From Actinomycetota bacterium (GTDB taxonomy: Bacteria > Actinomycetota > Actinomycetes > Nanopelagicales > Nanopelagicaceae), in contig VGAG01000014.1 of NCBI GenBank assembly GCA_016870835.1, forward strand, positions 1-32,119: DNA of 32,119 nt, given 5' to 3'. The position numbers were made by a program, and so were the translations under genes. Below, piece by piece: positions 16,369-18,796 of the stretch. Every line of letters begins with the position of its first letter. Positions within the stretch are counted from its first letter, which is position 1. The notes under the pieces were generated by a model that saw only the letters and a program-made list of their open reading frames with translations, searched no databases and was not told the DNA's origin.

Positions 16369-16443
16369 GCCTCCCTAGCTCAGTGGTAGAGCATCCGCCT
16401 TGTAAGCGGAAGGTCGTCAGTTCAATCCTGACGGGGGGCTCCA
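16369..16443 (+). tRNA. tRNA-Thr (anticodon TGT)
   Basis: This is a 75-nt cloverleaf. The acceptor GCCTCCC pairs with GGGGGGC (one T-G pair). It has a D-arm with GCTCAGTGGTAGAGC, an anticodon stem TCCGC/GCGGA around loop CTTGTAA (anticodon TGT, reading ACA/ACG), and a T-arm GTCAG-TTCAATC-CTGAC. The discriminator base is T, and the CCA end is encoded (16441-16443). It is convergent with the Rieske gene, whose stop begins 2 nt later. Confidence 0.96.
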
Positions 16444-16444
16444 A

Positions 16445-16873
16445 TTATCCGACCGTCACCTTTGTTTTGGTTACCTTAATTGGGATTGAGCGAAGATCAG
16501 AAGTTGCAGGCCCCTTCGTAAGCTCTCCATTAAAGGCATATTCGGCTTGATGGCCGAGCGCACAAATCCACCCGGAAGAAGTCTGCTCGACTGTTACGCC
16601 TTGATGCGTGCACCTCAAGTTAATTGCTCGAAAACCCGAGGATGAGTTAGCAGTTCTAATTAATGCGATATCAGTGCCATTCTTATTCTTAAATTGGATA
16701 ACTCCCCCCATTTTTTTCAATGAGGGGTTTTTAGCGATAGAAACTTCTACTTTTCCATTTGAAAGTACTTTAACCACTCCAGTTCCAATAGCTGAATCCG
16801 GAACAAGACCAAGGAAGATTGCTCCTAGTCCGCAAATTAAGGAGCGCCTTGATAAATCCATCTTCTCGCTCAT
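16445..16873 (-). CDS. Tat-exported Rieske [2Fe-2S] protein with atypical CX3H site
   Basis: This 142-aa secreted Rieske-type protein has an N-terminal twin-arginine motif SRRSLIC (8-14) with a following hydrophobic core, indicating Tat export of a folded cofactor protein. The first ligand pair is normal, C88-T-H90 in CTHQG. The second is C104-A-L-G-H108, i.e. CX3H instead of the canonical CX2H, with 13 residues between His90 and Cys104. The disulfide cysteines of bc1-type Rieske proteins are absent. Downstream, NGELTKGPATSDL (115-127) matches the usual NGxVxxGPAxxPL segment, so the fold is otherwise recognisable. A GGGAG ribosome site is 5 nt before the ATG. The gene is 26 nt behind the copper monooxygenase-like gene, so the two form an operon. 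An electron-transfer role is inferred. Confidence 0.82.
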   Translation of the reverse strand: MSEKMDLSRRSLICGLGAIFLGLVPDSAIGTGVVKVLSNGKVEVSIAKNPSLKKMGGVIQFKNKNGTDIALIRTANSSSGFRAINLRCTHQGVTVEQTSSGWICALGHQAEYAFNGELTKGPATSDLRSIPIKVTKTKVTVG

Positions 16874-16899
16874 TTACTCTCCCAACAGAATAATCAATA

Positions 16900-18186
16900 C
16901 TAATTCCTCGAAACCGAGAGTACTCCCAGGCACATCTCGTCTGAAGAGCCCTCGCCCCAAGTCACATACCTTGGGGGTTGATTCTTAAGCGCAGGGAGTA
17001 TTTGGCGAAGAATAGGATCGTGAGTGCATTCGAGCCTAATTACATCTCCGCGAGTTACTTCAACGGGTGTTTTCAGAAGAACAGGAGATTGATTATCAAA
17101 GTCATAGTTATCAACATTCAGGAGAATCTTCTCTCTTGTGGTTCCAGGATTCAAAATAATCCTCATTTTTCTCCCCAATAAATGCATATGAGGGGCGGCT
17201 GAAATGACGGTATAGCTCGAGTTAATGTTGCGATTGCAGGAAGTCAAGTTAGATGGAGTAACTTGGAGGGGGTTTCTTCCACAAATAGCCGCGATACCTA
17301 ATGCCTCGATTGCATTTGTACTATCGGTGCGCTTTGCTAAATCCTTTAGAGACTCGCCTCGATCACAGAGAAGACCTGTGACACCTTGTGGGCAAGCTAA
17401 TTCTACGGGTGCAGCAAAGAGTTCAATGTTTAGAGGCTTTATATTGGTACTAGATGCCGGTATGGCCTCCATCACTATCGTGGATTGATCAGTTTCGATT
17501 TTTCCATCTGGTGCAGCAAGGAGGTTGTAGTGGACTTGAAGAACAAATTGCTCGCCTTTGTTGAATGGGATTCCATAACCATCAGGGGAGAGATCTTTTC
17601 CTCGACCAGGTCCCCATGCGCTAATCCAGGGCGAGGTTACAAACGAAGAGACCATTCCCCCGAGACCAGAACCCCCAAAGCAAGACCAGCCAGTTCCAGA
17701 TCTATCCCGTTCAATGGCTTCTGCAAGATTAGCTTTCGATACTCTAAAGATTATTGCGTGATGTACATAGTTTTTTTGCTGTGGAATAAATTCTATGGAG
17801 CGAACTATTGAATCTTCTGTGACTTTTGGGTCAAGTAGGAAGCATCTGTAATCATCCGTTCCACCCGGAGGTGCTTTTGGTAAGTGAGCCTTACTCATCT
17901 CAACTGAGTATTTCTTTGGTTGGTCTGAATAAGTTGCGGAGGAAGATGGAAGAGGCGTGGCCGAAGGTTTAGCGGATGGAGAGGCAAGCGCCTCTTTCTT
18001 GATCTCTACGCCCTTACTCCACACCAACTTCTTTCCGCTTTTCTTGCAATTGAATTGCTTATTCTTGTAAGTCATTGTTGCCCCAGATTTGGCACATGTA
18101 GCACCTTCTCTTGGGGGAGTTGCAGCTAGCGATGGAAGCATGGGAGGGAGTAAAGTTAGAGTGGAAATCAGGATTACCTTCCTCAC
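16900..18186 (-). CDS. Secreted copper type II (PHM/DBM-like) monooxygenase family protein
   Basis: This 428-aa exported protein has a Sec signal peptide (about 1-22), then a short Cys-pair module (C31 and C47, ending KKLVWSKG), a Ser/Pro/Ala-rich linker (about 65-90) and a two-domain PHM/DBM-like catalytic core. All copper ligands expected from PHM can be placed: CuH site His142-His143 (YVHHAIIF) and His219 (LQVHYN); CuM site His333 and His335 (APHMHLLG) and Met418 (SSDEMCLG). Family members hydroxylate an aliphatic carbon using O2, two coppers and an external reductant. The bacterial substrate is unknown. The GTG start has TATTAT 7 nt upstream. It precedes the Rieske gene in one operon and is divergent from a DUF305 lipoprotein. 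Confidence 0.83.
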   Translation of the reverse strand: MRKVILISTLTLLPPMLPSLAATPPREGATCAKSGATMTYKNKQFNCKKSGKKLVWSKGVEIKKEALASPSAKPSATPLPSSSATYSDQPKKYSVEMSKAHLPKAPPGGTDDYRCFLLDPKVTEDSIVRSIEFIPQQKNYVHHAIIFRVSKANLAEAIERDRSGTGWSCFGGSGLGGMVSSFVTSPWISAWGPGRGKDLSPDGYGIPFNKGEQFVLQVHYNLLAAPDGKIETDQSTIVMEAIPASSTNIKPLNIELFAAPVELACPQGVTGLLCDRGESLKDLAKRTDSTNAIEALGIAAICGRNPLQVTPSNLTSCNRNINSSYTVISAAPHMHLLGRKMRIILNPGTTREKILLNVDNYDFDNQSPVLLKTPVEVTRGDVIRLECTHDPILRQILPALKNQPPRYVTWGEGSSDEMCLGVLSVSRN

Positions 18187-18193
18187 AACGAGA

Positions 18194-18199
18194 ATAATA
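18194..18199 (-). promoter_or_regulatory. -10 box of the copper-oxygenase/Rieske operon
   Basis: TATTAT on the minus strand ends 7 nt before the GTG at 18186, so the operon probably starts with a leaderless mRNA. It shares a 97-bp intergenic region with the divergent DUF305 gene. Confidence 0.48.
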
Positions 18200-18271
18200 G
18201 AGAGAAGAGGTTGTAGTTCTCAGACTCCACAAGGGCGCTACTAAGACTTCTCACTTCCCACCTTGGGGGGC

Positions 18272-18277
18272 TAAGGT
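18272..18277 (+). promoter_or_regulatory. -10 box of leaderless DUF305 promoter
   Basis: TAAGGT ends 6 nt before the ATG at 18284. The intervening bases are G-rich (CGGGGT) but too close to the ATG to act as a ribosome binding site. Confidence 0.45.
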
Positions 18278-18283
18278 CGGGGT

Positions 18284-18796
18284 ATGAAGCGCGCCTTAAC
18301 TCTGCTTTTATCTGTCGTTCTATTGGCGGGTTGCGCTTCGGGTAATGATGATCCGCTTTCTAATTACAGCAAGGCAGATATCAACTTTGCTGAGATGATG
18401 ATTCCCCACCATGAACAGGGTTTAGAGATGGTTGCGTTAGCGCAAGCCAATACAACTAACCCAGATATCTTGGCGCTCGCCGATCAGATTCGCGGAGCAC
18501 AAGAACCCGAAATAGTTTTGATGAAAACTTGGCCAGGTGTAGATCCCTCTAAACATGCGGGCCACACAATGGATGGAATGCTCCCCAAGAGCGAGATGGA
18601 GAAGTTGCGCTCTTCAAAGGGTGCTGACTTTGATCGCCTATTTCTTGAAGGAATGATTAAACATCATCAAGGCGCGATTGAGATGGCTAAGGAAGTAATG
18701 GACTCAAAGAATCAGAGCGTTATGAAGCTTGCTGGATGGATTGTTACTTCGCAAGCCCTTGAAATTGACACTATGAAGGAGTTGTTAAATAAGTAA
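18284..18796 (+). CDS. DUF305 lipoprotein, probable metal (copper)-binding
   Basis: This 170-aa exported lipoprotein has a short signal peptide with lipobox LLAGC (Cys17). It is a ferritin-like helical DUF305 protein with two internal copies of the family signature: MMIPHHEQGLEMV (38-50) and GMIKHHQGAIEMA (123-135), each with a His-His pair. A further HAGHTMDGM segment (91-99) is rich in His and Met. Such His/Met patterns, and the characterised cyanobacterial DUF305 protein CopM, point to periplasmic copper binding. Its position divergent from a copper monooxygenase-like gene strengthens the copper interpretation, which remains inference. It is probably cotranscribed with the GMC oxidoreductase 34 nt downstream. 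Confidence 0.83.
   Translation: MKRALTLLLSVVLLAGCASGNDDPLSNYSKADINFAEMMIPHHEQGLEMVALAQANTTNPDILALADQIRGAQEPEIVLMKTWPGVDPSKHAGHTMDGMLPKSEMEKLRSSKGADFDRLFLEGMIKHHQGAIEMAKEVMDSKNQSVMKLAGWIVTSQALEIDTMKELLNK

Follow-up and report, generated by a model that had tools for sequence, protein, structure and literature searches.

The locus analyzed here raises the question of how an exported bacterial copper protein resembling PHM and DBH, encoded beside a Rieske protein and a DUF305 lipoprotein, would obtain its electrons, and which of these neighbors belong with it. PHM and DBH are animal enzymes known from textbooks, with ascorbate as the reductant. All coordinates given below are positions in the window, by which we mean the whole stretch of 32,119 nt that was analyzed (from a freshwater Actinomycetota bacterium, contig VGAG01000014.1). 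Three open reading frames with the strands and the 26-nt and 97-nt gaps described in an earlier sequence-only reading were confirmed on the sequence (Table 1). The Rieske gene lies downstream of the Cu protein gene across the 26-nt gap, both on the minus strand, and ARAGORN places the 3' end of a tRNA-Thr gene 1 nt from the Rieske stop codon.

Table 1. Features of the Cu protein locus and its borders, in window coordinates.
Feature	Position	Strand	Basis or remark
tRNA-Thr(TGT)	16369..16443	+	ARAGORN; its 3' end marks the cassette's left border
Rieske protein, Tat-type exported, 142 aa	16445..16873	-	PF00355
PHM/DBH-type exported Cu protein, 428 aa	16900..18186	-	GTG start, Sec-type signal
M418, CuM-type ligand, followed by invariant C419	16933..16935	-	Invariant in 52/52
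H333-M334-H335, with H333 and H335 as CuM-type ligands	17182..17190	-	H333 and H335 invariant in 52/52
H219, CuH-type ligand; Q217, two residues earlier, likewise invariant	17530..17532	-	Invariant in 52/52
H142-H143, two CuH-type site ligands (the third is H219)	17758..17763	-	Invariant in 52/52
N-terminal Cys-rich domain of the Cu protein	18000..18110 (approximate limits)	-	Partial matches in most congeners, residues ~3-90 only
Gap of 97 bp between the divergent Cu protein and DUF305 genes	18187..18283		Sequence
DUF305/CopM lipoprotein, probable resident neighbor of the tRNA-Thr locus	18284..18796	+	PF03713, NF049983

In comparisons with Pfam, the Cu protein matched PF03712 above the cut-off (29.6 bits; cut-off 23) and PF01082 below the curated cut-off (23.9 bits, E 5e-5; cut-off 30). 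A profile of 52 homologues, compared with PDB sequences, identified DBH as the best match (E 7e-8), together with PHM (E 2e-7). AlphaFold predicted a two-domain PHM fold with a pLDDT of 89; the model aligned to PHM (6ALA) with Z 24.2 and an rmsd of 2.7 over 260 residues and to DBH (4ZEL) with Z 23.1, far above the next unrelated fold (Z 9.7). The ligand numbering of the sequence-only reading (H142, H143, H219, H333, H335 and M418) proved right, and all six residues, as well as Q217 and the M418-C419 pair, are invariant in the 52 homologues, so that its description of an exported, PHM-like protein with a full ligand set is borne out. The protein thus resembles PHM (1PHM, 6ALA) in its two-domain fold, its six ligands, the glutamine before the third histidine and the M-C pair at the second site, as well as in being secreted with conserved cysteines.

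Residues 1-90 of the Cu protein comprise the signal peptide and a small Cys-rich domain, which makes up the first ~60 mature residues. This domain (CxxxG ... FxCxxxGKKLxWxKG) has no Pfam match, and it forms the N-terminus of about 50 exported proteins of various kinds in the genus (in G009 and on many other contigs of the genus), among them a protein of the cytochrome b5 type (L032, 5148-5756). The domain may serve as a surface-anchoring or sorting tag.

The Rieske protein matched PF00355 at 26.4 bits (cut-off 20.3; E 6.5e-6), and its profile matched PetC3 with E 1e-13. Structure prediction returned a Rieske fold (pLDDT 82) for which the best PDB matches are Rieske proteins. Like the b6f/bc1 Rieske proteins and Rieske ferredoxins, it combines this fold with a Tat-type N-terminus and four ligands; C88, H90, C104 and H108, along with the twin arginine, are invariant in 49 homologues. 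It differs in lacking the second cysteine pair for the loop disulfide. The second ligand pair of a canonical Rieske protein is C-x2-H, whereas the window protein reads C-A-L-G-H (C-x3-H), one residue longer than usual, so the C-x-H ... C-x2-H pattern is not matched; this is the main doubt concerning cluster binding. The C-x3-H loop is common to the window, genome G002 (C-K-D-G-H in the Rieske protein paired there with a Cu protein) and two further genomes, and other Rieske proteins of the family, at four loci, have C-x5-H or C-x6-H loops. The range of variants from C-x2 to C-x6 suggests that the loop tolerates change, and we class the gene product as having a Rieske fold, a variant loop and a putative 2Fe-2S cluster.

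A second Rieske gene is found in most of the 24 genomes of the genus that we examined; it encodes the C-x2-H loop and is divergent from a GGDEF gene wherever its surroundings were read. The window's own genome also keeps this locus, albeit interrupted by a contig end. In the tree, the two Rieske proteins that are paired with Cu proteins form a group (SH-aLRT 89) whose sister is the genus-wide copy (98 for the whole group); the partner of the Cu gene is thus a duplicate, specific to the genus, of a housekeeping Rieske gene.

The Cu-Rieske pair recurs in one other genome, G002, where it occupies a different locus, and the Rieske gene has therefore been kept as companion of the Cu gene in two settings, which supports the association proposed in the sequence-only reading. 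In both, about 10 bp at most separates the Rieske stop codon from the 3' end of a tRNA gene; in G002, the tRNA is tRNA-Arg and the distance is 8 bp. Since the pair ends at a tRNA 3' end both times, it has the appearance of a cassette transferred in one piece. Four congeners, including G002, have the gene order lacZ, tRNA-Thr, DUF305 with nothing in between; nucleotide similarity between the window and these congeners stops at 16441-16456 and restarts inside the DUF305 gene at about 18330-18386. The pattern resembles that of a tRNA-targeted island: the cassette adjoins a tRNA 3' end, relatives carry the empty site, and G002 carries a second site, away from its own DUF305 gene. Among loci with the Cu gene or the cassette, 6 of about 47 have a tRNA within 100 bp, compared with roughly 0.5 expected when calculated from tRNA density. 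Five congeners with the Cu gene show five different neighborhoods.

Related genomes differ in what lies between tRNA-Thr and DUF305 (the window and three other loci), and this slot is thus a hotspot for insertion; in G009, it is filled by two other exported-protein genes. No integrase was seen among the genes near the cassette, and the search for an att-type repeat returned only a shared 8-bp string, GGGGGGCT, located in the 97-bp gap (18265-18272) and at the tRNA-Thr 3' end (16433-16440), which is weak evidence. Base composition gave no sign of foreign origin (45.5% GC in the cassette region, 46-49% around it). A chimeric assembly at the tRNA is unlikely, because the gene order on both sides matches that of relatives. 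From these sequence comparisons, insertion of the Cu-Rieske cassette beside a resident DUF305 gene is the simplest history; loss of the cassette by deletion in other lineages, instead of insertion here, is less likely.

We then counted gene pairs within 5.5 kb across 296 Nanopelagicaceae genomes, 74 of which (about a quarter) encode the Cu protein. The cultured Planktophila strain IMCC25003 is among the carriers of the gene. Phyletic co-occurrence with the Cu gene is weak (p 0.03 for Rieske, 0.05 for DUF305 and 0.4 for cytochrome b5), so that position alone is informative. These counts treat related genomes as independent and thus overstate significance: the Cu gene pairs with an exported cytochrome b5 gene 13 times in 13 genomes (0.29 expected), with a Rieske gene twice (0.33 expected) and with DUF305 five times (0.36 expected), and Rieske and DUF305 genes form 19 pairs in 13 genomes (0.68 expected). 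The cytochrome b5 neighbors are mostly convergent with the Cu gene, not co-transcribed, and several lie within 1-15 bp of it; in two genomes, the cytochrome b5 gene is on the same strand, about 73 bp upstream. The idea of a protein electron donor thus holds in spirit, through a different carrier in most places, and the cytochrome b5 neighbors raise the plausibility of such a donor above what the Rieske case gives by itself.

Copper amine oxidase genes also recur beside the Cu gene. Half of the 16 genomes that have both carry them within 3 kb of each other, inside the 5.5-kb limit used above (8 of 16; 0.14 expected, again with related genomes taken as independent), and the two are convergent in 10 further loci. 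Based on a quick tree of the Cu family, the amine oxidase adjoins two distinct branches, and this neighborhood hints at amine substrates. At five Nanopelagicaceae loci, a UbiA prenyltransferase gene lies between the PHM/DBH-type gene and the amine oxidase gene; several of the tail-to-tail amine oxidase loci (L076, L089 and L099 are among these loci) are labeled Ilumatobacteraceae or acIV. Other surroundings of the Cu gene include, in genus g30 (three loci), a same-strand run of cytochrome oxidase genes, a rhodopsin, a small membrane protein and the Cu oxygenase. Divergent from the Cu gene at about 30 loci (e.g., L070, 2588-5056), whose labels span two Actinomycetota classes, are genes for a fusion of an exported S15-type hydrolase with an ABC ATPase and for an ABC-2 permease.

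The Rieske gene could instead be a passenger, co-captured in a mobile cassette, with the Cu protein being reduced by cytochrome b5, by a small reductant or through the respiratory chain. Nearly all Cu loci lack an adjoining Rieske gene: among the 81 that we examined, window included, it is present in 2 (with DUF305 nearby in 3), it is missing from three of the five Cu gene loci in congeners, and neither profile nor motif found a Rieske partner of the Cu gene in other actinobacteria. Small Rieske genes are widespread whether or not the Cu gene is present (strong matches in 114 Nanopelagicaceae genomes), and exported-protein cassettes are swapped at the tRNA locus, as the two other genes in G009 illustrate. 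However, the tight same-strand pair at two different sites and the separate clade of the cassette Rieske proteins argue against a mere co-capture, which we consider somewhat unlikely.

The arginine located two residues before the first CuM histidine of PHM is the substrate-carboxylate clamp; in all 52 homologues of the Cu protein, this residue is A, G, T or N, so by that test the protein is not a peptidylglycine hydroxylase. It also differs from PHM in being bacterial, in its ~20% identity and in having genes for redox proteins nearby instead of free ascorbate, and it differs from DBH (4ZEL), the closest PDB sequence, in lacking the DOMON and dimerization parts. Homology over both halves, the ligand set and the predicted fold make the Cu protein a member of the PHM/DBH superfamily, albeit not PHM proper. 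The missing clamp, together with the lack of any characterized bacterial member in the literature covered, could be taken to indicate a copper-binding or copper-redox surface protein with a PHM fold, engaged for example in copper handling. We consider this quite unlikely: the profile alignment shows that DBH likewise lacks the arginine, there is no exception to the conservation of the six catalytic ligands, of Q217 or of the M-C pair in the 52 sequences, and the neighbors in the loci examined are redox carriers and amine oxidase, not copper pumps.

The DUF305 protein matched PF03713 at 132 bits (cut-off 27; E 2.3e-38) and the NCBIfam CopM family NF049983 at 95.7 (cut-off 90). It shares the exported DUF305 domain with CopM of Synechocystis, which binds copper (PMC4335983); unlike CopM, it is a lipoprotein and is not encoded beside copRS or an RND pump. 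Because DUF305 directly follows the same tRNA-Thr in four congeners that lack the cassette there, it is most likely a resident neighbor and not a dedicated copper loader. DUF305 was probably already at this spot before the cassette, and it is not clearly part of the unit; it may bind copper near the Cu-Rieske pair as a pre-existing neighbor. A search for the three families together found the Cu-Rieske pair again in G002, but the trio at none of the other loci examined, and dedicated membership of DUF305 in the unit, as the sequence-only reading had it, is therefore not supported. Two genomes (G149 and G270) have Cu, DUF305, cytochrome b5 and Rieske genes within about 10 kb. The clustering of DUF305 with other Rieske genes leaves room for a looser link. 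A recurrent Nanopelagicaceae operon (11 loci) encodes a His-rich exported protein, DUF305, an unnamed ~205-aa exported protein and a Tat-Rieske protein, sometimes joined by a DUF2231 membrane protein; in the tree, this Rieske protein belongs to a different clade from that of the cassette. A candidate copper operator in the 97-bp gap, the inverted repeat ACCTT-N8-AAGGT, was dropped, as none of the 19 other DUF305 genes examined has it upstream. The three-part module of the sequence-only reading, in which DUF305 loads copper, the Rieske protein reduces the oxygenase and expression runs from the shared 97-bp region, can draw on the copper binding of CopM, the DUF305 pairs counted above and the four-gene neighborhoods of G149 and G270, yet it is very unlikely given the cassette-free DUF305 loci, the separate location of the cassette in G002, the different Rieske clade and the repeat's absence elsewhere.

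We tentatively favor, at somewhat below even confidence, a two-gene cassette of an exported PHM/DBH-type oxygenase and a protein electron carrier (Rieske here, cytochrome b5 elsewhere), perhaps acting on an amine substrate. The proposal starts from the ligand set, the predicted fold, the pairing and relocation of the genes, and the export signals recognized in their sequences. Single electrons would flow from the Rieske protein to the CuH site of the Cu protein, and the CuM site would bind O2 and, outside the cytoplasm, hydroxylate a C-H bond in a small substrate that is possibly an amine. The donor role, which falls to ascorbate in animal PHM and DBH, would here fall to the Rieske protein, and in relatives it may fall to an exported cytochrome b5. 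Copper loading by DUF305 is the weakest step of the scheme. A broader version, in which a cell-surface PHM/DBH-type system of abundant freshwater actinobacteria uses Rieske or cytochrome b5 interchangeably, as dedicated exported carriers, in place of ascorbate, relocates among slots linked to tRNA genes and acts jointly with copper amine oxidase on amines, is unlikely in its entirety.

A 2020 review places PHM and DBH under eukaryotic copper proteins only (PMC7435645). Pfam clearly recognizes bacterial proteins of this type, the Cu protein being one through PF03712. In the part of the literature covered, we found no described bacterial PHM/DBH system with a protein reductant, in agreement with the sequence-only reading, which knew of no system of this make-up. 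With its full ligand set and its occurrence in about a quarter of the sampled Nanopelagicaceae, a conserved branch in bacteria would show how PHM/DBH chemistry proceeds without ascorbate. A Rieske or cytochrome b5 protein would offer a tractable partner for studying how electrons pass from one copper site to the other, a matter of long debate. The finding points to an unrecognized extracytoplasmic oxidation in dominant lake bacteria.
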